Below, piece after piece: positions 52,109-64,000 of a DNA stretch of 64,000 bases. The notes beneath the pieces were generated by a model. That model saw nothing but the letters and a program-made list of their open reading frames with translations. It had not been told where the DNA came from and did not search any database. Source of the stretch: Pirellulales bacterium (GTDB lineage Bacteria; Planctomycetota; Planctomycetia; Pirellulales; PALSA-1355); NCBI GenBank assembly GCA_022844125.1, contig JALHMI010000010.1, positions 1 through 64,000 on the forward strand, written 5' to 3'. A program made the position numbers and the translations under genes. Within the stretch, counting starts at the first letter, position 1. Every line of letters starts with the position of its first letter.

Positions 52109-53403
52109 TTCGTCGCGACAGTAGCGCCGCCATCTCGTTCATCTTCATCACGATCCTGATCGACGCGGTCGGCCTGGGCATCGTGCTCCCCGTCACGCCC
52201 GACCTGATCATGGAGCTGACGGGCACCTCGGTGAGTGAGGCATCCATCTATGGCGGCTGGATGGCGTTCGCCTATGCCGTCATGCAATTCATCTTCGGGC
52301 CGGTGGTGGGCAATCTCAGCGATCGCTTCGGCCGGCGTCCGGTACTCTTGCTCTCGCTGTTGACCTTCGGCATCGACTATGCCCTGATGGCTTTTGCGCC
52401 GACGGTCACGTGGCTGTTCGTCGGCCGCGCGATTGCCGGCATGGCGGGCGCGGCGCACTCGGCGGCGAATGCTTACATCGCCGATGTCAGTCCGCCCGAG
52501 AAGCGCGCCCAGAACTTTGGCTTGATGGGCGCCGCGTTCGGCCTAGGGTTCATCGTGGGGCCGGCGCTCGGTGGGTTCATGGGGTACTTCGGCACACGGG
52601 CACCATTTTACGCCGCGGCGGTGCTTGCGCTGATCAACATGTTGTATGGAATGTTCGTCCTGCCCGAGAGCCTGCCGAAAGAGGCTCGTCGACCGTTCCA
52701 TTGGCGGCGGGCCAACACGCTGGGTACCGTGCTTGAGCTACGCAAGTATCCGGCCGTGACTCTGCTGGCCACGGTCTTGTTTCTGTGGACGCTGGCCCAT
52801 CAGGTACTGCCGGCCACCTGGGCGTTTTATGCGCAGGCCAAGTTTCATTGGTCGACTTTGGAGATCGGCTTCTCGCTGGCCTTTGCCGGCGTGATGATGG
52901 CCGTCGTGCAGGCAGGTCTCACGCGCGTGATGGTCCCCAGGCTTGGCGAGCACGCGGCCGTTCTGCTGGGACTCGTCACCGGTGGAATCGGCTACGTGCT
53001 ATATGCTTTCGTCTGGCAAGGCTGGATGGTCTATCCGGCGATGGTCGTCGGCATGTTCGGCGGGCTCACGTTTCCATCGCTCAATGCGCTGATGTCGCAA
53101 CGTATTCCGCCGAGCAGCCAGGGTGAGTTGCAAGGCGCCGTGGCCAGCCTGTTCAGCCTGACCGCAATCGTCGGTCCGGTGTTGATGACGCAGCTCTTCG
53201 GCTACTTCACCAGTGCAGCGGCGCCGGTTCAATTCCCGGGCGCGGCCTTCCTGTGCGCGGCGGTATTGGTGCTGCTGAGCATCGCGCTCTTCTTGCAGGC
53301 CGACCGGCCCCGACGCGACAACGCGAACTCAGAACTCCAGGTCGATCGACCGAAAGCGGAAACCAGCGACGTGCCCGCCATTTCCCCCAAAGCAAATGCC
53401 TAG
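52105..53403 (+). CDS. MFS transporter, TetA-like
   Basis: A 432-residue, 12-helix efflux transporter (GTG start, four-base overlap with GNAT). Motif A appears as [14 protein letters not shown] and the loop IGPALGGF-like sequence as [20 protein letters not shown]. TetA-like DHA1 drug exporters are the nearest group, but the substrate is unknown. Its 3' end overlaps the convergent membrane gene by 4 bases. Confidence 0.88.
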
Positions 53404-53699
53404 TCGGCAGGTGCTCTTCGCCTTCCCGGCGTGCGCGGCCTGAGGAACCACAGCACGATCAAGATCGGGATCGCATAGAACACCAGCTTCGGCCGCAGCG
53501 CCACGACCAGAATCGTGATCCCGCCCGTCACGGCCAGCCACCTGGGCACGTGCTGCACCTGCGGGTAGGCGAACCACCAGATGCCGAGCATCACGCCCAT
53601 CCGGATGCAGCCACCCCAGAAGGCTTCGTCGGCCTGTCCTTTCGTGGCAATGCCGATGACGAGCAAGATTAAGGCGATGATCCCCAGCAGTGTGCGCAT
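53400..53699 (-). CDS. Small membrane protein, unknown
   Basis: A 99-residue protein (ATG 53699 preferred; upstream sequence has no membrane features). Three membrane segments: LLGIIALILLVIGIAT, GVMLGIWWFAYPQ and WLAVTGGITILVVALRPKLV, then a basic tail (RPRTPGRRRAP). No family recognised. It overlaps the MFS gene end tail to tail. Confidence 0.55.
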   Translation of the reverse strand: MRTLLGIIALILLVIGIATKGQADEAFWGGCIRMGVMLGIWWFAYPQVQHVPRWLAVTGGITILVVALRPKLVFYAIPILIVLWFLRPRTPGRRRAPAD

Positions 53700-53769
53700 C
53701 GAGACATTATCGAGAGACAGCCGCTCGACCGCCAGGGCAGACGCCGGACCGGCAGAAAGACACGCGTCC

Positions 53770-55770
53770 TTAGATGCGGTCCAGGCTATCCAGCCACCGC
53801 ATGAGCCCGTCGAGTTCTTCGGCCGTGAGATATCGGGCCTGCTCGCCAACACCTTGCACGACAACGGGGTATTTGAGCGCTCGCAGGCGCTCGATTCCGG
53901 CCTCGACTGCAGCTGACTGCTCGCTCTTTGTGGCCAGCGTGGTGTAGAACGCCTGGCGGTTGACCGGATCGGGCTGTGGCAGTTGCGACAAGCGGGGCAG
54001 GGGGGAATCGACCGCGGCGACCGCCCGAACCAGATCGATGTTCGTCACGCCAAACAGGTAGGCCATCGTCGCCCCGGCCTGGTGACCATGCACGGCGATG
54101 CGTGTCGGATCAATCGAGTAGGTCTTGGCCACGGCATCGGCCGCGCGGCGCACGAAGCCGAGCTCCGTCGGCTGCCAGCGGGTGGCATCGGCCGACTTCG
54201 GCGCAAGCAGAATGAAATCGTACTTCTCGCACAGCGGCTTCCACAGCGCAACCAGCTCTTCATCTTTCGAGCCCCCCGGAGCATGCAGCCAGATCACCAG
54301 TCCATGCGGCACGTCGGCGCGAAAATCGTCCGGTACCAGGGCCTGGCATGCGTTCTCGAACTCGGGCAGCTTGATCGGCACAAGCCCCGTGGCGGGCTTC
54401 GCGACGTCGGCCGCGGCCAGTGCCGCCGAGTCGTGAGCCGGCGGTAGTTCACCGGGCACGCTTTCCGGCAACGTTGCTAACGTGGCATTCACAAGCAGCG
54501 TTTGGTCTCCGCGCAGCGCTTCGAGGGCGACCGATTCGTCCGGGGTGAGCGGCTGAAGCTGCTCGCGCAGATCGGCAGCGGTAGTAACTTTCGCTCCCGC
54601 AATCGATTGCACCCGATCACCCGCTTGCAGCCCCGCCTTGGCCGCGGGACTGTCCGGATAGACATAGCGAATCGCAATGCCCTTGGCGTCGGCATCCTCA
54701 GCTTTGCCCACCGGACGCATCGGCAAGATGCCCAGGAATGGCGTCACGTACGGATCGATCTTCTCGGCCAGCGTCACTTCGCGATCGATGCGTTCATCGC
54801 CGCGCAGCGCGACAACCCGCACATTCTCGCCGGCGTAGAGCGGCCCCATCGCGTGCTTGAGCTGTGCGTGGCGCTCAACCGCTTGCCCTGCCACTTCGAC
54901 GATCCTGTCCCCTTTGCGGAACCCCGCCTTGAATGCCGGACCCGTCGGCGCGGCCACTGCGATCTCCGCGACCTTGGCGTTCAGGTCGCTCGCCTTGAAC
55001 GACACGCCCAGGAGGCCGGTATGCAGATCCTTTCCCTCTTTCATCCGCGGCAGGTTGCGCAGCACGGTCTCGAGCGGCACGGCGAAACCGATGCCCGAGT
55101 CGTACCATTCCACGCCGGCGACTTCCTCGGTCTCTTGCGGGGACATGGGGACCAGCACACCGAGCACGCGGCCGCGGATATCCACCAGCGGACCGCCGTA
55201 GTTATTGGGCGAGATCTTGGCGTCCGTCTGCAGCGACTTGCTCCAGATGCGATCCTTCGCGCTGATGATGCCGACCGAGGCATTCGGACGCTCGGCCTCG
55301 AAAGTTCGGCCGACCGCGATTGCCCATTGGCCGACGCGCACTTCACTCTGGGGCGCTGCTTCGGCGGGTGTGAGTGGTTCGTCCGCCTCGACCTTCAGCA
55401 GCACTAGCAGCCGGCTACGATCGGTGGACACGAGCTGCGCCGCCTGGCGTTTGCCGCTAGGAAGCGTCACCAGGATCGAATCCGGCTTCTGCGCAAAGTT
55501 GAACGCGCTTGAAATGATGTAGCCTTCGCTGTCGACCACCAGACCGGTCGTGGGCCCGGTGCCGACAAGCAGTTCGCCGACGCGCTCCAAACCGCCGACG
55601 GTCTCGATCCGCACGACCGACGGCGCCACGCGTTCGACCGCGGCCTTGATCGCCTGTTCTTCGAGCTCGGCGAGTGGCTCATCCGCGGCCCCGACCTGCG
55701 TCGTCAGCAAACACAGCGCCCAGACGAACAGCAGCGGAGCGATCCATGACTTGTAATACGGCCGGCTCAT
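53770..55770 (-). CDS. Exported pseudo-protease: inactive trypsin-like, two PDZ, esterase-like domain
   Basis: A 666-residue exported protein with the HtrA-like layout. All triad positions are replaced: His becomes Phe90 (YIISSAFNF), Asp becomes Leu121 and Ser becomes Tyr191 (SPNNYGGPL for PGNSGGPL). Two PDZ domains follow (about 250-330 and 345-440). The last 190 residues resemble an alpha/beta hydrolase (VIWLHAPGGSKDEE), but the nucleophile motif reads GHQAG, with Gln564 for Ser. So both enzyme domains look inactive and binding or scaffolding is likely. It overlaps the preceding gene by four bases. Confidence 0.85.
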   Translation of the reverse strand: MSRPYYKSWIAPLLFVWALCLLTTQVGAADEPLAELEEQAIKAAVERVAPSVVRIETVGGLERVGELLVGTGPTTGLVVDSEGYIISSAFNFAQKPDSILVTLPSGKRQAAQLVSTDRSRLLVLLKVEADEPLTPAEAAPQSEVRVGQWAIAVGRTFEAERPNASVGIISAKDRIWSKSLQTDAKISPNNYGGPLVDIRGRVLGVLVPMSPQETEEVAGVEWYDSGIGFAVPLETVLRNLPRMKEGKDLHTGLLGVSFKASDLNAKVAEIAVAAPTGPAFKAGFRKGDRIVEVAGQAVERHAQLKHAMGPLYAGENVRVVALRGDERIDREVTLAEKIDPYVTPFLGILPMRPVGKAEDADAKGIAIRYVYPDSPAAKAGLQAGDRVQSIAGAKVTTAADLREQLQPLTPDESVALEALRGDQTLLVNATLATLPESVPGELPPAHDSAALAAADVAKPATGLVPIKLPEFENACQALVPDDFRADVPHGLVIWLHAPGGSKDEELVALWKPLCEKYDFILLAPKSADATRWQPTELGFVRRAADAVAKTYSIDPTRIAVHGHQAGATMAYLFGVTNIDLVRAVAAVDSPLPRLSQLPQPDPVNRQAFYTTLATKSEQSAAVEAGIERLRALKYPVVVQGVGEQARYLTAEELDGLMRWLDSLDRI

Positions 55771-56789
55771 GGTCGGTCTCCCTCGGCGGCCGGCACTTCG
55801 ACCTCGACAAGTTCCTGCCCCCGCATCAGCACGAGCTTCAAGGTCGAGTTGCGTTCGATGTGCGCTAGCTCATCGCGAAATCCCTGGCACGAATGCACCA
55901 GGTTCTCGCCCACAAACACGATCAAATCGTCGGGCCGCAAGCCGGCCATCGCCGCTGCCGAGCCTCCGCGCACCAGGTCCACGTAAGGCGGCGTCCGCTC
56001 CAGAACGTCAGGTACGAGCACCAGCCCCAGCGCCGCCAGGTCGATCGCCTCGTCCGGCTTGAGCTTCGGCTCCTCGTCCGTCGGGCGAAACTTGCCTTCC
56101 AGAATCTGTGAAACCGAACCTCGCAGCTCCTCAATCGGCAACGCGTAATTGAGCCAGATGTTGTTCTGCGCGCTGCGCAGTTCTTTGCCGAGCATTGCCA
56201 CAAGCTCTCCGCGCTGATTGATCAGTGCTCCGCCGGCCGCGCCGGGATTGTTCGTCATCGCATCCAGTACGTAGACCGAGCCGCGGTAGGGCGTTTCGAA
56301 CACACCGCGGCGAGCGTCAAGCTGCGTCTTCACCGCAACCACGCCATGCTGCACGCTGGCCGGCTCATCGCCAGTTGCCACGCCGAACAGATTGCTGAAC
56401 GCCAGTACGCGGGTGCCACTTTCGGCCGTGGCCGCGGCGTTCAAATCAAAGAAGGGGAGCTCGGTCGCTTCGATCTTCAGCACTGCCAATTCCAACCGCG
56501 GATCGGCGCCGAGCAGCTTCGCCTCGAAGCGCCGGCCGTCGTTGAGCGTCACGGTGATGTAATCGGTATCGAGCACGTAGCTCCAGGCAGTCGCAATGTG
56601 CCCTTCGGCAGAAATCAGAAAACCACTCTGATAGGCCTCCAGCCGGTTGAATCCGCCGGCGCCGTAGATCTTGACCATCTTGGGCTGCGTCGTGTCGATC
56701 ACCTCGGCAACCGACGCAGCGCGCACGTCGACCGCGGCGAAAGCGAGCAGCGATAGGGCCAGCAGCCGTTGAATAGCAGCGAGGTTCAT
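55767..56789 (-). CDS. Exported trypsin-like/PDZ protein lacking the catalytic triad
   Basis: A 340-residue exported protein (signal peptide LLALSLLAFAAVDVRA). The trypsin-like core has Ser70 for His (IATAWSYVLD), Glu100 for Asp (RLELAVLKI) and Ala185 for Ser (NPGAAGGAL), so it cannot work as a serine protease. A C-terminal PDZ domain (residues 250-330) is intact. Its ATG directly follows the upstream gene's stop, and its own end overlaps the next gene. Confidence 0.85.
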   Translation of the reverse strand: MNLAAIQRLLALSLLAFAAVDVRAASVAEVIDTTQPKMVKIYGAGGFNRLEAYQSGFLISAEGHIATAWSYVLDTDYITVTLNDGRRFEAKLLGADPRLELAVLKIEATELPFFDLNAAATAESGTRVLAFSNLFGVATGDEPASVQHGVVAVKTQLDARRGVFETPYRGSVYVLDAMTNNPGAAGGALINQRGELVAMLGKELRSAQNNIWLNYALPIEELRGSVSQILEGKFRPTDEEPKLKPDEAIDLAALGLVLVPDVLERTPPYVDLVRGGSAAAMAGLRPDDLIVFVGENLVHSCQGFRDELAHIERNSTLKLVLMRGQELVEVEVPAAEGDRP

Positions 56790-58616
56790 CTATTCACCCT
56801 CCGGCTGCGGAGCATCGGCCGCTGCATAGCTTTCGCAATTGAATTCGTAGCTATACCCATCGCCAAAGCGGACTTCGATCTTCCCCGGCAGCCATTGCCC
56901 GGCGAACTCGCGGTAGTCGGTGAAGTACAACTCGCAAGGATCAACGTCCGTCTCAGGAAACATCTCCAGGGCCGCGAGACTGCCCTGCGGATCGATGTAG
57001 AACAGGCACTCGACGTCCTCATGCGTAGCTTCGAGAATGTCGAACATTCCCTCGCGATCCGCGAGCGGCATCGTTCCCAGGTACTGCACGCGACTGAAGC
57101 TCTGCGGGCCGTCGACAAGCATCCGCCGCCAGAGTGCCAGCGCCGCGAGTAAGCCACCGCTGCCGGGCGGCTCCAGGTGATTCGACATGCCGCCGGTCCA
57201 CTCCACCCGAAGCTCGCCGCTAGGAAGCCTGATTGCGGCCCCGGCGTCCGAGAACTCCAGGCGGAACTCCTCGGCTCCGCCGGTCTTGCCGGTGACGGCC
57301 CAAGCCTTGCCCAGGTTGGCAAAGTTGCCACGGCTGGTCAGTGCCGCGGCTACGCGCTTTCGCTCGAGCTCATTGAAGAAGTAGTTCACATAGCCGGCCT
57401 TCTTTTCGTAGTGCTGCTTGACGATCTCCGGCATCGGGGCCTTCTTCTTCGGCATCCGCACCGGCACCGGATCCTTGCCCGGCCCACCATCATCAGGTTT
57501 TTGATCCTCGGGCTGCTCTTCCTTGGGCTCCGAGCCGGGCTCGTCTTTCGGCTTCTCCCCCTTGGGGATCGGCATCTTCTCATGCGGATCCTGCTGCTCG
57601 GCCGCGATCATCTCTTCCAGTTCAATCTCGGCATGCACGCCGCGCAGCCGCACGAGCACGTCGTAACGCTGCCCCTGCCGGCGGAACGACAGCGGTACGC
57701 GCCACCCGCGCGGGAAAATGCCCAGTGCGTTCTTGAAGGCGTTCACCGTCGTGATCGGCCGGCCCGCAAAGGCGATGATCTCGTCTCCATAGCGAAGCCC
57801 ACGGCGATAGGCATCGGACTCTTCCAGAATGTCGTCGACCACCACGCGGCGATCGGCGTCGCTGCGGACCACGGCGCCCAGCGTCGCATGATCCGCGATC
57901 CGCCCACTCTTCAGGTGGCCCAGGAAGTTCTTGATCTGATTGATCGAAATCGCATAGCCCACACCGACGTTCACGCGGCCGCGCTTCTCGAATGACCCGC
58001 GCCCGTTGATGCCAATCAGCTTCCCCTGGGCGTTGAACATCGGACCGCCTGAGTTACCCGGATTGATCGCGGCATCCGATTGCAGGCAGTCGGCATATTC
58101 CAGGATCGTGCCGGCCGGATACTGGTAGCGATGCACGCCTGAGATCACGCCGAAGGCCACGCTGGGTTGATAGTCGGTCGCCAGCAGAAACGGGTTACCG
58201 ACCGTAAAGCACCAGTCGCCCACGCGCACCTGGTCGCTGTCGCCCAACTCCGCGGCCGGAAAATCGTTCCGCCCCAGCAGCTTGATCAAGGCCACATCGC
58301 CCGTGGGATCGAGCCCCACGATCACGGCGTCGTACAGCTTGCCGTCGGCCATGCCGCACTGCATGGCATCACCGCAGGCGCTGGTGACATGGAAGTTCGA
58401 CAGGGCATAGCCATCCGGCGAAATCACCACGCCGCTGCCGCCGCCCTGTCCACCGGGCGAGAACACCGCCACTGTCGACGCCACGCACTTCTCGACCACC
58501 GCCACGCGGGCTTCTTCCGCCGCGAGCACGGCCGGATCGACCTGCGCGCGGGCCTGCCGCGCCCCGATCATGGCGATCAGCAGAAGGAGCCCCAGCCTGA
58601 CCATTGGTGCCTGCAT
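56790..58616 (-). CDS. Active-looking trypsin-like serine protease with PDZ and linker domain
   Basis: A 608-residue exported HtrA-like protease, start at ATG 58616 with the signal peptide LGLLLLIAMIGARQARA. The triad is complete: His76 in LSNFHV, Asp107 in PTGDVALIKL and Ser189 in INPGNSGGP. A PDZ domain follows (AVVRSDADRRVVVDDI), then a charged linker (EKPKDEPGSEPKEEQ) and an unknown C-terminal domain. It is the only catalytically competent member of the three-protease set and may act with the two pseudo-proteases. Confidence 0.9.
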   Translation of the reverse strand: MQAPMVRLGLLLLIAMIGARQARAQVDPAVLAAEEARVAVVEKCVASTVAVFSPGGQGGGSGVVISPDGYALSNFHVTSACGDAMQCGMADGKLYDAVIVGLDPTGDVALIKLLGRNDFPAAELGDSDQVRVGDWCFTVGNPFLLATDYQPSVAFGVISGVHRYQYPAGTILEYADCLQSDAAINPGNSGGPMFNAQGKLIGINGRGSFEKRGRVNVGVGYAISINQIKNFLGHLKSGRIADHATLGAVVRSDADRRVVVDDILEESDAYRRGLRYGDEIIAFAGRPITTVNAFKNALGIFPRGWRVPLSFRRQGQRYDVLVRLRGVHAEIELEEMIAAEQQDPHEKMPIPKGEKPKDEPGSEPKEEQPEDQKPDDGGPGKDPVPVRMPKKKAPMPEIVKQHYEKKAGYVNYFFNELERKRVAAALTSRGNFANLGKAWAVTGKTGGAEEFRLEFSDAGAAIRLPSGELRVEWTGGMSNHLEPPGSGGLLAALALWRRMLVDGPQSFSRVQYLGTMPLADREGMFDILEATHEDVECLFYIDPQGSLAALEMFPETDVDPCELYFTDYREFAGQWLPGKIEVRFGDGYSYEFNCESYAAADAPQPEGE

Positions 58617-58659: not shown

Positions 58660-59850
58660 CTACTTCGTTACGTGTGCGTCACCTAGATTCAGCCTATCTC
58701 CGACGTCGAGCCCTTCGCCGTAATCAGCTAATATCTCGATGCGACGAATGCCGCCGGCGTCCAGTTCCAACTGTTGAGCGGGTTCCGTGCCGCGCACTTC
58801 GCCCTCCCACAGCAATTTGCCGTCTCCCTTGATTGAGAGCCAAACACTGCCGCTCTCGCGCATCGTGTCGTCGATCCCGACCGTCGTGCGAAACAAGCGG
58901 AACGTATCCGGCAGCCGATAGATCAGCTCGGTGCGACTGGCAAGCGACAAGCCCTTGCGAAACACCTTTCCATCGAGCTTGAGCGGCGAGTCGTCGAAGC
59001 CCCGATCGCGGCGATATTCGAAATAGCCCAACAGCGCTTGCGGCGGCTCGGAAAAAGCCACCAGCGGCGTGAACTGCGCGCTCTCGGGCTCCAGGTCGCT
59101 GAGATAGGCAATCTTGCCGCCGGAAAAGTCGAAGCGCAGCGTGTCCGCGACCGGGATACTCAGCTTCACTCCGGCAGGTGTTTCGATCGCGAGCTTTTCG
59201 CCCTCCAGCGTGAGTGCTCGCAGCGGCAGGCGGCTACCACCTCTCAGGTTCAGCGTGCCGATCGATTCCGGCAGTTGGCTGACTTTGGCCGCCGCGTACA
59301 CGATCCCCGTGATCTTTTCGCGCTTCACCGGAATCGTCTCGCCGTCAAGCTCGAATTGGCAAGTCGAGGCGTCGAGACTCCGCACGATCCCTTCGAGGTA
59401 GTCGAGCGCATCGTTCTTCCGCACCACGAGCAGATCGCCCGCGGGCTTCGACTCAGTAATCTCGGCCCATTGTTTCTGCAGCTTGGGCTCGGCGATGGGA
59501 GTCAGCTTCACCGCGCGCACGGAGCGCGTCGGCACCTCTAATAACGTCTCCGCGTTCAGCTTTAACGAGGCATTGCCATCTTTGGTCAGGTACTCCGCCG
59601 CTGTGAGCTGAGCCCCATCGATAAGACTGATTTCAACGGCGCCGGCTGCTAGGGTCGGCTTGGCGCCTTCCAGCGCCAGCGTCGCGAGCTTTTCCAGCGG
59701 CAGCGAGACGTCGCCCGAGTCCGTCGTCAGCACAATCTCCGTGGCGGTGGCCGACTTGAGCTCGCCGCGCGCAGTCTGGCCGTCGAGCGTCTGGGCCTCG
59801 AAGGGCACCGCGGCCGAAAGCAGTACGGAGAGCAGCAGACTGACTGTCAT
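58660..59850 (-). CDS. Exported NPCBM/NEW2-domain protein
   Basis: A 396-residue exported protein. A short signal peptide is followed by beta-rich repeats (GTIxLTTxxGxVxLPLEKL-like). The C-terminal 130 residues (YRRDRGFDDSPLKLDGKVFR, then ELIYRLPDTFRLFRTTVGID) match the NPCBM/NEW2 galactose-binding-like module seen in planctomycete and glycosidase proteins; it should bind sugars. Position in the protease operon suggests the module helps target a glycan. Confidence 0.8.
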   Translation of the reverse strand: MTVSLLLSVLLSAAVPFEAQTLDGQTARGELKSATATEIVLTTDSGDVSLPLEKLATLALEGAKPTLAAGAVEISLIDGAQLTAAEYLTKDGNASLKLNAETLLEVPTRSVRAVKLTPIAEPKLQKQWAEITESKPAGDLLVVRKNDALDYLEGIVRSLDASTCQFELDGETIPVKREKITGIVYAAAKVSQLPESIGTLNLRGGSRLPLRALTLEGEKLAIETPAGVKLSIPVADTLRFDFSGGKIAYLSDLEPESAQFTPLVAFSEPPQALLGYFEYRRDRGFDDSPLKLDGKVFRKGLSLASRTELIYRLPDTFRLFRTTVGIDDTMRESGSVWLSIKGDGKLLWEGEVRGTEPAQQLELDAGGIRRIEILADYGEGLDVGDRLNLGDAHVTK

Positions 59851-59861
59851 GGCGTGGTTCC

Positions 59862-60926
59862 CTATTTACCTTCCGAACCTTCCGTGGCGAGCTTGCGGAA
59901 GTATTGCTCGATCATGTCTCGGTAGTGGGCCGGATACTCCTGACCGATCTGTTGCAAGGCTTCCTCGCGCTCCTTGGGCGGCAGGTTGCCCCAGCCGCTG
60001 CCGTCGCCGATTGGCTTCTTGTCCACGTTGCCGGGGCCCTTGCCGCCGAGCGGCATGCTGTCGGGCAGGGGAGCGATGGGCATCGGCCCCCCGCCACCCG
60101 CTCCGCCCGCCGCCGCGGCTGCCGCGGCTTGCTGCTGCTTTTCCATCTCTTCAATGAGCTTATCGAGCGATGCGATCACGCCGTCTTCGACTTCGCGTGT
60201 CTTCTTGCCCGCGCGACCCAGATCGAGCCGGCGCTCGATATCCTCCATCCGCCGCGCGATGTGATCGAGCGAGTCGTCCTTCAGCCCTTCGAGATCCGCC
60301 TGCATCAACTTCGCCAGCGAGGCATAACGCCTGGGAAGTTGCGATTCGTTCTCGAGCAGCCGTGTGATGGCGGCAAGGCCCTCGTCGCGGGCCAGCATTC
60401 GATGATGGACAACCGCCCGGTGGAAGAGCAGGGCCGCCGGATCGGCGACCTCATCCAACTTGATGGAGGCCATCTGCTCGGCCGCTTCGTCATAAAGCTG
60501 CTCGTGAACCAACCAGCGCACGTAGTACAACCGCAGGTTGCTCCGGACGAACTCCGGCAGTGCCGGATCGTCGAGCCAGGTCACATCCGGCAAAACAACA
60601 TTCTTCCGCGGCTGCGACGCCACGTCGACAAGCTCCTTCGCTCGCGGTTCGCCCAGCACGATCGTGCGGCAGGCCAGATCCAGCAGCGGCGTGTCGCTGG
60701 CCTCGGCTGCGCCTTCCTGCCAGAGCGCTTCGGCCGCCGCCAGCGAAGACTTGTCCGCTTGGTCCTTGGATACCCAGGCGAGCACCTGTTCGCGCACGGC
60801 CTGCGCGTCGGGCGTTTTCCAGCTCGCACGCTGCGTGAGGCTGGGCCGATCATCGGCAGTGCTAATTGCGGCGTTGAGCAGTACGGCAACGGCCGCCAGC
60901 AGCGGTAAAATGCGTCGCGCGGTCAT
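59862..60926 (-). CDS. Exported helical protein with Ala/Gly-rich linker, unknown
   Basis: A 354-residue exported protein (signal peptide LLAAVAVLLNAAISTADD). The middle is helical and TPR-like in spacing (AALLFHRAVVHHRMLARDEG). The tail has QQQAAAAAAAGG and a Gly/Pro linker, then a helical end. No family is recognised. It overlaps the following (upstream-read) acidic gene by four bases and precedes the NPCBM gene by 11. Confidence 0.6.
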   Translation of the reverse strand: MTARRILPLLAAVAVLLNAAISTADDRPSLTQRASWKTPDAQAVREQVLAWVSKDQADKSSLAAAEALWQEGAAEASDTPLLDLACRTIVLGEPRAKELVDVASQPRKNVVLPDVTWLDDPALPEFVRSNLRLYYVRWLVHEQLYDEAAEQMASIKLDEVADPAALLFHRAVVHHRMLARDEGLAAITRLLENESQLPRRYASLAKLMQADLEGLKDDSLDHIARRMEDIERRLDLGRAGKKTREVEDGVIASLDKLIEEMEKQQQAAAAAAAGGAGGGGPMPIAPLPDSMPLGGKGPGNVDKKPIGDGSGWGNLPPKEREEALQQIGQEYPAHYRDMIEQYFRKLATEGSEGK

Positions 60927-62758
60927 CGATTTCTCCCTACCACGATGTCGCGGGTAATCTTGTGAATGCGAGATTCTCGCTCCGCCAGCTCCTCGAGCGC
61001 TTGAAGTATCTGCGGCTCACTTGCCTGTTCGGTCTTGGTGAGCTCGGTGTACCGCTGTGTGCGGTTGTTCACGCGCATCTGCATCGCGCGGATCATCTTC
61101 AGCTCGGCGATCGTATCCACGAGTGGCATCTCCTGCTCGCCTCCGGCCTGACCGGGCTGGCCAGGTTTCTGCTCCTGCATGTCTTTCTGAGCCTTCTCGA
61201 GCGCAGTGATCATCTCTTCCAGAGCAGCGATGACATCTTCTTCGACACCTTGCGTGAGGATGCCGGTGTCGGCCTCGTTCAGGCGATCGCGAATCGTAAT
61301 CATGTCGTCGCGAATCTCGATGACCGCTTCAGGGAACGCCACGGCCGAACCTTCTTCCTGCAGCATGGCCAGCGCCTTGTCCGCCTCGACCGCGATCTCG
61401 GCCTCTTTCCGGCTTAGCCGACCGGCCTCGATCACATCGTCGCGGTCGCGATCCGCTGCGGGAACCTTATCCAGCCGCTGCGTGCCTTCGTATACCTGCA
61501 CCTGGGCTTCGAGCATTTTGCGAAAGCGGGCCTCAAGCATCGCGAGCGTGCGGGCCATCTCCTCTTCGCGCAGTTGCCGCAGAATCTCTTCGAGCTCGGC
61601 CTTGGCCTGTTCCAGTTCCCGCAGGGCTTGCTCCTGCTTCTCAACGGCGTCCGATTTCTTGGCCTCTTCGAGCTTCTTTTGGGCTTCCTGCATCCGTTGC
61701 TGCGCCTTCTGCAACCGCTGCTCGGCTGGATTCTGCTCGCTCTCTTCACTCTCGCCGCTCTGGCCGCTCTCGCCCGGCTGCGGGGGATCGACCGGCGGAG
61801 GACCGTCTTGCGGCTTCGATTCGGACTTCTCGCCTTCGGACTTCTGGCCCTCGGACTTCTTGCCCTCAGCGTCTTCGCCATCCGACTTTTCGCCGTCAGA
61901 CTTCTCGGATTCGCTCTTCTCGCTTTCAGGCTTCTCTTCGGACGGCTTATCCGATTTCTCGCCTTCAGGCTTCTCAGCGTCTGACTTCTCGGTGTCGGGT
62001 TTTTCGCCCTCGGATTCTTTACCCTCGGCAGATTCCCCCTCGGGCGTCCCATCGCTCTCTTTGCCAGGCTCGCCGTCAGCGGGCTCGCTCTCGCTGGGCT
62101 CTTTTGTCGGTGCGCGCGCTTCCTCGTCCTTGCGCACATCCTCGGCCAGCTCGCCGGTCTTGTCCTTGATCTCACCCTGACGCTCGGCGAGCTCCTTGGC
62201 GTCGTCGTCGCGCTGGGTTGCGCCCTGAACTTGCCGCTGCTCCTTGATGATCTTGTTGACCCGCTCCAGATACTTACGGATCCGTTCCTTCTCGGACTCG
62301 ATGTGCTTCGAACGGTCTTCGCTGAGCATCAGCTCCAGCAGCCGCATCAGGTCGTCACGAACGTTCTCCTGGCCCTTGACGGCCGGGCTGAATCGCTCGT
62401 TCTTGAGCAGCTCAATCAACGCACCGAACTGATCTTCGATCGCCCGGTCTTTGCTTTGTGCAACAGCCTGACGCAGCAGCGCGGCCCGCCGGGGATCGGT
62501 CGACTCCGTGAGTTCCGCCATTCGCAGCAGCAGCCGCTCGAGATCGCGAAACCGTTCGGCCACTTGCTCTTGCCGCGTGAGCAGGGGGTTTTTGGCCGCC
62601 TCATCCGCACTCGCGGGCTCTTCAGCCGGGGTATCGGCCGGTTCCGGGTTGTCGACCGTCTTCCCGGGCGGCTCGGCAGCTTCCTGCGCGGACGCATGGC
62701 GCACGAGCGTGAAGCTCAGCACGAGCAGTCCCAACAGCAGCAGCCAGCGTGTGTTCAT
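60923..62758 (-). CDS. Exported acidic coiled-coil protein with Lys-Ser-Glu repeats
   Basis: A 611-residue exported protein (signal peptide LLLLGLLVLSFTLVRHASA). Residues about 215-310 are a low-complexity, acidic repeat of GEKSDGEKSE type; long coiled coils surround it (QQRMQEAQKKLEEAKK and ELEQAKAELEEILRQLREEE). It looks like a filament or scaffold in the envelope. It overlaps its downstream neighbour by four bases. Function unknown. Confidence 0.65.
   Translation of the reverse strand: MNTRWLLLLGLLVLSFTLVRHASAQEAAEPPGKTVDNPEPADTPAEEPASADEAAKNPLLTRQEQVAERFRDLERLLLRMAELTESTDPRRAALLRQAVAQSKDRAIEDQFGALIELLKNERFSPAVKGQENVRDDLMRLLELMLSEDRSKHIESEKERIRKYLERVNKIIKEQRQVQGATQRDDDAKELAERQGEIKDKTGELAEDVRKDEEARAPTKEPSESEPADGEPGKESDGTPEGESAEGKESEGEKPDTEKSDAEKPEGEKSDKPSEEKPESEKSESEKSDGEKSDGEDAEGKKSEGQKSEGEKSESKPQDGPPPVDPPQPGESGQSGESEESEQNPAEQRLQKAQQRMQEAQKKLEEAKKSDAVEKQEQALRELEQAKAELEEILRQLREEEMARTLAMLEARFRKMLEAQVQVYEGTQRLDKVPAADRDRDDVIEAGRLSRKEAEIAVEADKALAMLQEEGSAVAFPEAVIEIRDDMITIRDRLNEADTGILTQGVEEDVIAALEEMITALEKAQKDMQEQKPGQPGQAGGEQEMPLVDTIAELKMIRAMQMRVNNRTQRYTELTKTEQASEPQILQALEELAERESRIHKITRDIVVGRNR
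61815..62090. repeat. Degenerate coding minisatellite (acidic repeat)
   Basis: Imperfect repeats of a GACTTCTCGCCTTC-like unit, read on the minus strand as lysine/serine/glutamate/aspartate motifs. The unit is about 12-18 bases and keeps the frame, so length variation between strains is expected. Confidence 0.6.
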
Positions 62759-62785: not shown

Positions 62786-64000
62786 TTACTCGATCAAGCT
62801 CCGCAGCGACTTCTTCTGCTGCTGCTTGGTTTCCTCATTCACTTGCTCTTGCGTCTCGATGATCTTGCGCAGCATCTCGAGCGCCTCGTTGAACGTCTCT
62901 AATTCTAACATCCGGTCCAGGATTCCCTGCATTTCCACCAGAATCCCGTCGATCTGGGCCACCGCCTCGGCCTGCGACTTCACGGCCGCGTCCGGCGCTG
63001 CCAGTTGCCCGCCAAGCTGCTTGAGCCTCTCCAGCAGCGGCGGATAGCGAGTCTCGCCGATCGTTCGCAGCGGTCGGGCAATCCCCTCGTCCAGCCGCTG
63101 CGTCAGCTCGGGCGTGTCGATCCGATTGTTGGCCAGCTCTTCGCGAATGTCGTCAAATGCCGTGGCCAGGTTCACGACTTCGTCCATGCTCCGCTCGCTG
63201 TTCTGCACGACGCGTTCGACCTGCACCGCGGGGCTCAGCCGGCCGGTGGCCGCCTCGCGCGACGGAGCCGCATCCTCTGGCTTTGGCTCAGGCTCCGCAT
63301 TCGGCCGCAGTTCCACTCCGGCCAGCAGATCGCGAGTGTCGGTCAATTCCTGAATGATCGTTTCGAACTGTCGCCGCAGAATCAGTTCGCGGGCTTCGAG
63401 CATCGACCGCAGCTGGTCGGGCGTCACCACGTCCAGGGCATATTTTTGACTCACGCCCACGTTCGGATTTGCTTCCAGCGCGCAGTTGTCCGCGGCCTGC
63501 ACGGTCCAGTGCAGGCGTTGCTTGGGCTTCAGCTGAAGATCAGCCACTTCCATCACGCCGGCCAGCTCCACCGCTTCGGCGCCTGGATTGCCAAACTCCA
63601 GCGGCCGTTGCTGCGCCGGTTGCTCGTCGACATTGAAGTCGAACCAGGCTCGGGCCACGCCGTAGTCATCTTCCACCTGGCCGACGGCCGGCAGCCGGGC
63701 CTCGGGCGTGATCGCGGTGCCGATTCCCTTGAGAACGACGTTCACCCGCGGGGCTTCATCGGGCACTGCCGCGAGTGTAAGCCTGACCGCTTCGCGGCTG
63801 GCGATGCCATCCGTATCGCGCAGCGTGAAGAGCAGCGTCTTGTCGGCGTCGAGCCGGCCGAGGTCGAACTCGAACTTTTCCTGTGGCTTGCCGGCTTCGG
63901 CCGCGACGTCGATGCGATGTGTCTCGGCCGTACCGTCGCTGGCCACGTCGTCGATTTGCACGGAGACGAGCGGCTTGTTCGACGTGGCCAGAATCGTGAC
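62786..64000 (-). CDS. Large exported or membrane helical protein, C-terminal part
   Basis: At least 405 residues of a longer protein are visible; the reading frame stays open to the window edge. The N-terminal part seen is beta-rich (FTLRDTDGIASREAVRLTLA, PDEAPRVNVVLKGIG), then long helices (MLEARELILRRQFETIIQEL, and QTEVEQ-type coiled coil at the end). The pattern resembles the large DUF4175-like planctomycete proteins found in MoxR/BatA-type clusters, but I cannot confirm that. It is the first visible gene of the operon. Confidence 0.6.
   Translation of the reverse strand, partial: VTILATSNKPLVSVQIDDVASDGTAETHRIDVAAEAGKPQEKFEFDLGRLDADKTLLFTLRDTDGIASREAVRLTLAAVPDEAPRVNVVLKGIGTAITPEARLPAVGQVEDDYGVARAWFDFNVDEQPAQQRPLEFGNPGAEAVELAGVMEVADLQLKPKQRLHWTVQAADNCALEANPNVGVSQKYALDVVTPDQLRSMLEARELILRRQFETIIQELTDTRDLLAGVELRPNAEPEPKPEDAAPSREAATGRLSPAVQVERVVQNSERSMDEVVNLATAFDDIREELANNRIDTPELTQRLDEGIARPLRTIGETRYPPLLERLKQLGGQLAAPDAAVKSQAEAVAQIDGILVEMQGILDRMLELETFNEALEMLRKIIETQEQVNEETKQQQKKSLRSLIE

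Follow-up and report, generated by a model that had tools for sequence, protein, structure and literature searches.

HtrA proteases are textbook homo-oligomers. In the 64,000 nucleotides of DNA from a Pirellulales bacterium that were analyzed here (the window; positions 1–64,000 of contig JALHMI010000010.1 in assembly GCA_022844125.1, coded G000 in the comparisons), three consecutive genes, termed P1, P2, and P3 in the following, encode HtrA-like proteins, of which P1 has a complete catalytic triad and P2 and P3 have none. An active HtrA with a dead partner is already known from the pair MamE/MamO, which is the closest precedent for the trio, as there an active HtrA and a dead homologue take part in one process (PMC4794232). 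MamO lacks a usable triad yet is required for MamE-dependent proteolysis, and the paper ascribes this effect to the transporter part of MamO and not to its protease-like domain. It further describes MamO as repurposed to bind metal and such pseudoproteases as having arisen in three magnetotactic groups (PMC4794232). The MamO family, which has a TauE part as well as a di-histidine that binds metal, is placed in alphaproteobacterial magnetotactic organisms (PMC4794232), whereas the trio has two dead homologues, PDZ domains, a phylum-wide occurrence, and repeated fusion. By family membership none of the three proteins is a MamO, with 47.8 (P1), 45.6 (P2), and 37.3 bits (P3) against the NCBIfam MamO cut-off of 800. 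Two dead partners across the families of a phylum, their repeated fusion, and a predicted LolA-like part on the protease appear to be new; a search by titles and the beginnings of abstracts, in which subscription journals were thinly covered, found no report of an inactive HtrA set in planctomycetes.

DegP, DegQ, DegS, and other Do-type proteases share with the trio the layout of protease and PDZ domains and are strongly matched by all three proteins. They differ from P2 and P3, which are without a triad, and from P1 with its LolA-like part, and all three proteins stay far below the cut-off of the NCBIfam model degP_htrA_DO (204.1 bits for P1, 108.6 for P2, and 188.5 for P3 versus 416.2). In plant thylakoids, Deg5 and Deg8 form a joint complex. 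They resemble the trio as two different HtrA paralogues within one compartment, but both have a named catalytic triad (PMC3640471). For HtrA1, it has been described that the subunits relay activation within the trimer (PMC5666011). RseB and MucB, whose lipid-binding domain has been compared with LolA and LolB, control the cleavage by an HtrA protease, namely DegS or AlgW (PMC7400510). P1 resembles them through its predicted LolA-like fold; in P1, however, this part sits within the protease chain itself. No sigma or anti-sigma family turned up among the scanned proteins of the window and its upstream neighborhood.

Three HtrA-like proteins and one catalytic triad

The genes lie head to tail on the minus strand in the order P1 (58616–56790), P2 (56789–55767), and P3 (55770–53770). 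A first-pass annotation, which was made from the sequence alone, had described them as three adjacent, overlapping HtrA-like/PDZ genes. Matches to Trypsin_2 and PDZ_2 in all three proteins bear out the adjacent HtrA-like set, the PDZ match of P1 being just sub-threshold. The overlap holds exactly for P2 and P3, where the P2 stop overlaps the P3 start in the ATGA at 55767–55770, but not for P1 and P2, which merely abut, the P1 stop being directly followed by the P2 start in the TAGATG at 56787–56792. As read from the translations, each protein starts with a hydrophobic signal-like segment, and all three are presumably exported.

In P1 (56790–58616), a trypsin-like domain (Trypsin_2, residues 60–203, E-value 7.2e-31) is followed by a PDZ domain (PDZ_2, residues 246–322, 3.5e-05), as in the HtrA/Deg (Do) family. 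The PDZ match, at 24.5 bits, is below the curated cut-off of 27; in a comparison with solved structures, residues 60–325, which comprise protease and PDZ and span the sub-threshold part, match DegP at 4e-39. The alignment yielded a complete triad of His76, Asp107, and Ser189, whose codons, computed from the residue numbering, are located at 58389–58391, 58296–58298, and 58050–58052, the latter within the motif NPGNSGG. The last 214 residues (395–608; 56793–57434), which the first-pass annotation had not mentioned, match no Pfam family, and no Lol family came up for P1 at E-values of up to 0.1 in Pfam and up to 0.001 in NCBIfam. An AlphaFold2 model of this part, based on a 20-row alignment from which distant rows were left out, has a predicted local distance difference test score (pLDDT) of 88.9 and a predicted template modeling score (pTM) of 0.84. 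Foldseek matched it to 3buu at 8e-06, yet with a TM-score of merely 0.50, and in VIA comparisons it obtained a Z-score of 12.1 to 3bk5 (root-mean-square deviation, rmsd, of 4.1 over 177 aligned residues), 10.9 to 3buu, 9.5 to LolB 8cm1, and a weak 6.1 to RseB. The C-terminal part of P1 is thus predicted to have a LolA/LolB-like fold.

P2 (55767–56789) comprises a Trypsin_2 match (residues 55–199, 5.7e-21) and one PDZ domain (PDZ_2, residues 268–332, 6e-07, above the Pfam cut-off), and its profile matches DegQ and DegP among the solved structures at 3e-39 to 1e-36. In the model of a fused P1-P2 protein (see below), the P2 part matches DegS 2qf0 (Z 23.9, rmsd 3.3, 193 aligned residues). At the triad positions the alignment places Ser70, Glu100, and Ala185, the alanine codon being located at 56235–56237 within NPGAAGG. 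P3 (53770–55770) contains a Trypsin_2 match (residues 75–205, 6.7e-20) and a PDZ_2 match over two stretches (residues 252–334 and about 359–418, 1.3e-24, likewise above the Pfam cut-off), and its profile matches DegP at 1.2e-53 across the protease and both PDZ domains. Its triad positions are occupied by Asn91, Leu121, and Tyr191, the tyrosine codon being located at 55198–55200 within SPNNYGG. Although the His column cannot be assigned to an exact residue, the window protein has no His in this place. The residues given for P1 and P2 by the first-pass annotation agree with this alignment, as do Leu121 and Tyr191 of P3; of the nine positions only Phe90 had to be replaced, since the His column falls on Asn91. 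Overall, P2 and P3 both have the protease-like fold and PDZ domains, and neither the window proteins nor the relatives examined have the His-Asp-Ser triad of an active protease.

P3 carries a further enzyme-like part, likewise unmentioned before. Its residues 478–666 (53773–54339) resemble short-chain polyhydroxyalkanoate (PHA) depolymerases and esterases, with an NCBIfam PHA depolymerase match of 3.9e-11 that is below the cut-off of that model. Short-chain PHA depolymerases and esterases carry a GxSxG nucleophile motif, and P3 has GHQAG (562–566) in this position. A GxSxG nucleophile was not found among the P3 relatives either: 54 of 60 rows have another residue in the Ser column, five have a gap, and one has a Ser in SVSPA, which is not the motif, whereby the stretch is divergent and individual rows may be misaligned. 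Because of GHQAG at the GxSxG site and the absence of this motif from the aligned rows, P3 may be described as a dead protease joined to a probably dead esterase.

Conservation of the active and inactive genes

The first-pass annotation had suggested looking for the same active/inactive set in related planctomycetes, and this set recurs both within the order and in other families. For the order, 246 genomes were searched with P2 and 60 regions were fetched, all of them found via P2. P1, P2, and P3 are consecutive on one strand in 59 of these 60 loci. With the window included, the P1 rows have His and Asp in 60 of 61 cases (one gapped) and Ser in all 61. All 61 P2 rows have Ser in the His column; the Asp column holds Glu (56), Asp (4), or Gly (1), and the Ser column Ala (51), Pro (4), Gln (3), Thr (2), or Gly (1), but never Ser. 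In P3, the Ser column is Tyr in 59 of 60 rows and Val in the other, and His is present in the His column of two rows. None of the 60 order loci has regained a full triad in P2 or P3.

Across the phylum, a P2 profile search was carried out in 246 genomes spread over Planctomycetota. The E-values formed a first tier at 2e-109 or better and a second one from 1e-45 to 3e-72, with weaker matches from 3e-36. Of the 40 genomes in the top two tiers, 31, from 16 other families, contributed a region, and these regions hold the same genes. P1 has the complete triad in 26 of 28 regions, the other two being unresolved at His, and P3 has Tyr at the Ser position in 29/29. Since the loci were found through P2 and not through the Tyr, the P3 counts of order and phylum are not circular. 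Five regions with weaker matches were also inspected. Four of them (L143–L146) hold one HtrA with an intact triad and served as a control; in the fifth, L147, a fusion of two dead domains lies next to a gene with an intact triad.

A third set of loci came from a pattern scan of named genomes with the P3 alignment; the phylum-wide P2 alignment is too variable for such a scan. It gave at least 548 confirmed matches, of which 80 loci were kept; all counts for this set are among the matches listed. Pirellulaceae, Planctomycetaceae, Gimesia, Thalassoglobus neptunius, Gemmatales, and Phycisphaerae are among the titles, and at least 11 of the 80 loci recur in the phylum set, so that the two sets are not independent. 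Phyla outside Planctomycetota were reached solely through this P3 scan. Its titles are planctomycete or plain "bacterium" except for one contig labeled Proteobacteria (L189), which carries P3 and may have been wrongly binned or named. All three genes are present in 63 of the 80 loci, and on one strand in all 63. P1 has the full triad in 58 of them, with five unresolved. The Ser position of P2 is occupied by A, Q, P, Y, G, S, H, or F; the 5 of 70 P2 proteins that retain Ser carry Gly in place of His and Gln in place of Asp, and two cut ones are visible only at the Ser position, which is Ala. In P3, this position is Tyr in 79 of the 80 loci, but the count is circular in part, since NYGG was contained in one of the two patterns of the scan; the sole exception is L186 from Phycisphaerae, with Phe (SPANFGG). 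Full triads in relatives, which the first-pass annotation had named as a sign of decay or sequence error, were thus looked for in P2 and found in 0/61 order rows, 0/31 phylum regions, and 0/70 named-genome loci among the matches listed.

In order to estimate selection, ratios of nonsynonymous to synonymous substitution rates (dN/dS) were determined for the protease-PDZ part. For nine pairs, some of which share a member, they amount to 0.03–0.09 for P2, 0.04–0.11 for P3, and 0.02–0.06 for P1, and in a more divergent tenth pair (L184/L235) to 0.15–0.19 for all three genes. The pair L197/L203 gave 0.039 for P2 and 0.036 for P3 at a dS of 2–3 and no value for P1, and L227/L231 was saturated. Single values are rough, as most pairs have a dS of about 1 or more. 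Purifying selection acts on P2 and P3 almost as strongly as on P1.

The three genes are also present or absent together. In the order, 213 of 246 genomes have all three genes, 25 have none, and eight are mixed, the latter being drafts of 310–880 contigs; G017, a genome in one contig and 99% complete, is without P1, P2, and P3. In this count, P1 was scored by its C-terminal part, seven P1-negative genomes were assigned by elimination from the positives, and absence means an E-value above 1e-30 for P2 and above 1e-25 for P3. In the phylum sample, where the corresponding limits are 1e-45 and 1e-93, P2 and P3 occur together in 40 genomes (18 families), P3 alone in one (at a contig end), P2 alone in none, and neither in 205. 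The thresholds were chosen by eye at gaps in the E-values; for P3 in the order, there is only a narrow gap, from 3.8e-22 to 8.3e-28. Fisher values for co-presence of 1e-27 to 1e-31 ignore shared ancestry and are descriptive only.

Partner subunits or separate proteins

In 8 of the 63 trios among the matches listed, P1 and P2 are part of one open frame of 861–1290 codons from stop to stop, in which 208–332 residues separate the two matches. On the tree, the fusion label requires five changes, at least four of which are forced by the starred branches. One such fusion could be an assembly error, but the repeated cases are unlikely to be. The fusion of two genes is a classical indication that their products are physically associated. 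A fused protein (L176) was modeled with AlphaFold2 from an alignment of the eight fused rows; single P1 and P2 rows were left out, as MAFFT aligned P1 rows with the P2 half. The first protease domain of this model has an HtrA fold (Z 24.7, rmsd 2.3, 195 residues aligned to 2z9i).

A quickly built, midpoint-rooted tree of 83 protease domains, in which eight paralogues with a recognizable Ser motif represent the genome's own HtrA set, resolves P1, P2, and P3 as one clade each (Shimodaira–Hasegawa-like approximate likelihood ratio test, SH-aLRT, 99, 100, and 100). A number of sub-groups appear in each of the three clades. The simplest reading of the sequence data would be three old lines that were co-inherited and in which catalysis was lost before the sampled families split, presumably in a single ancient event. 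A simple triplication of P1 was considered as well, but finds no support in the tree, which places P3 with other HtrAs of the genome. As a side observation, trios from Mariniblastus and other Pirellulaceae group with those from Phycisphaerae (L173, L181, L194, L215, L217, L227, L231, L242), which suggests a transfer of the trio as a whole unit.

The repeated fusion and the near-absolute co-occurrence favor a tight coupling of P1, P2, and P3. Together with the absence of regained triads and the low dN/dS, they speak for the view of the first-pass annotation that P2 and P3 are selected, non-catalytic partners; from their sequences, both look like old, retained proteins of this kind and not like decaying genes. 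We consider it probable that they are obligate non-catalytic partner subunits of P1. By combining the precedents of the HtrA1 trimer relay, MamO/MamE, and RseB/MucB, a heteromeric HtrA with one active site is proposed. P1, P2, and P3 would together make up a single HtrA system of the envelope, with P1 as its only cutting subunit, and P1 would assemble with P2 and P3 via the faces that ordinary HtrA proteins use for homotrimers. P2 and P3 would supply PDZ domains, activating subunit contacts, and shut pockets, but no second or third cutting site, and might, as suggested by the first-pass annotation, regulate or feed the active protease. A signal read by the PDZ or LolA-like parts might set the activity of the single site, and the LolA-like part of P1 may bind or sense a lipid or a lipoprotein. 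The physical complex, its stoichiometry, the regulation, and a lipid-related signal are what we infer from these comparisons. A more specific version, namely an obligate 1:1:1 heterotrimer in which the Tyr of P3 plugs the pocket and the LolA-like part of P1 reads a lipid or lipoprotein signal, is only tentatively put forward.

Several observations weigh against the partner-subunit reading. The trio has a patchy distribution, being present in about 40 of the 246 genomes sampled across the phylum, and several of the 25 order genomes without it are incomplete drafts. P3 is on another contig in L044 (genome G004), and in G332 and G350, which belong to one genus, P2 is solitary, P3 is far off, and P1 was not located. 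The fused frames all come from metagenome-assembled contigs, and the model of L176 reaches a pLDDT of only 66.5 and a pTM of 0.42 with its eight rows, so that the placement of the domains is not fixed. In the tree, the P3 clade stands among the genome's other HtrAs and not beside P1 (SH-aLRT 91), and the lineage-varied dead residues of P2 would agree with a single loss and later drift as well as with several independent losses.

It might be that P2 and P3 are independent pseudo-HtrA chaperones, which assemble into homotrimers of their own, recognize unfolded or signal peptides via PDZ and dead pocket, and hold clients or pass them to P1 without sharing a trimer with it. HtrA homologues classically self-assemble, P3 retains the two-PDZ layout of DegP with the strong profile match given above, P1 and P2 are in separate frames in 55 of the 63 trios among the matches listed, and the genes may also be dispersed. 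The repeated fusion and the joint occurrence point the other way, although a fused chain could still feed a neighboring site, and we regard such chaperones as unlikely. A MamO-like function, in which the dead pockets bind metal, lipid, or another ligand and the link to P1 consists only in the same envelope process (MoxR/VWA), appears less probable still. The repurposing of MamO for metal binding (PMC4794232) provides a model for it, the Tyr of P3 is nearly invariant, which one would expect if the site had taken on a new role, and there is a second dead enzyme-like domain in P3. However, the residue at the Ser position of P2 varies widely, which makes this pocket unlike one conserved ligand site.

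That the genes merely share their inheritance as part of a common operon with the MoxR/VWA genes would agree with the operon-like order from MoxR to P3, which is also present in L148 and L149, but is very improbable. The gene U354 lies upstream of the trio in 53 of the 60 order loci (L062 ends before that point), but it is absent there in L055, L057, L058, L059, L088, and L089, in which, as in L150 and L151, the trio persists without U354 and U611 upstream. P2 and P3 are retained even when scattered, as both persist apart in G332 and G350. Furthermore, purifying selection acts on each gene separately and lone members are rare, with the one P3-only genome of the phylum and the eight mixed drafts of the order. 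Decay, by recent pseudogenization or as a sequencing error in this genome, is favored by nothing but the missing catalytic residues and is for practical purposes ruled out by conservation, with no regained triad in the order or in the 31 genomes of 16 other families, by open frames with a dN/dS of about 0.03–0.11 for nine pairs, and by the shared loss.

Neighboring genes, related chains, and meaning

The genes upstream of P1 that are described here are on the minus strand as well. P1 adjoins a gene for an NPCBM/NEW2-domain protein (58660–59850), which is retained there in most relatives. It is preceded by U354 (59862–60926) and U611 (60923–62758), which are both syntenic; U354 is without a Pfam family, and U611 encodes a low-complexity, charged protein without a Pfam family above cut-off. 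The C-terminal part of U743 (62786–64000) belongs to a 743-aa gene that runs on upstream in the contig beyond the window. On the 3' side of P3, a small hydrophobic open reading frame, TM154 (53400–53864, minus strand, uncertain start codon), is found at the same position in part of the relatives.

In the contig of the window, the gene run is MoxR, DUF58, BatA-like, VWA/MG2, U743, U611, U354, NPCBM, P1, P2, and P3. The MoxR-to-VWA/MG2 genes and U743 correspond to L092 4787–13746, on the upstream side of the window end, and beyond MoxR there is a PQQ/propeller-type gene. The MoxR-to-trio run is also present upstream in G005 (L148) and G149 (L149), and in L130 MoxR and DUF58 lie directly before P1. 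The same MoxR-to-NPCBM run was not seen upstream in G215 (L150) and G163 (L151), which were both picked as U354-less. Because of this run in the own contig and in some relatives, an envelope role tied to the MoxR/vWA system is likely. MoxR-vWA conflict systems also have MoxR and vWA genes near peptidase genes (Kaur et al., 2020; PMC7159879). Here, however, the vWA genes belong to the DUF58/BatA type, and none of them is fused to a propeller. The MoxR passes the Pfam bpMoxR cut-off of 27 with 40.5 bits, but AAA_3 is far better with 214.5 bits, and no VMAP, iSTAND, or FtsH families turned up in the scans of these neighbor genes.

Further chains that combine HtrA-like domains were noticed outside the trio. 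The G000 genome (6.4 Mb) has a large HtrA-like set with 24 Trypsin_2 matches, and at G000:C5:42300-44222 (L108:801-2723:-; L152) it encodes a protein of ~641 residues with three tandem trypsin-like domains, of which the first is without a triad, the second is His/Asp/Ser-like, and the third lacks His and has Cys for Ser. Homologues with the three-domain layout are present in G042 and G023, chains with one active-looking and one dead domain in seven genomes of family f17, and 11 of 117 order genomes match the tandem-domain protein at 1e-20. If the heterotrimer design is true, this chain of a dead, an active-looking, and a dead domain would be its one-chain version. In L247 (G257:C8, 6220–9302), a 597-codon open reading frame with two dead protease-like domains stands directly before an intact 443-codon HtrA, perhaps as a distant variant of the active/dead HtrA design. 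Judged from such sequences, the mixing of dead and working HtrA domains is recurrent in these bacteria.

ClpP/ClpR and proteasome rings include non-catalytic subunits. If the partner-subunit reading of P1, P2, and P3 is true, bacterial quality-control proteases can evolve in the same manner, with non-catalytic subunits that set the extent of cutting. The trio also offers a natural, testable split between sensing and cutting, and it names a function-bearing module in the poorly understood envelope of planctomycetes.

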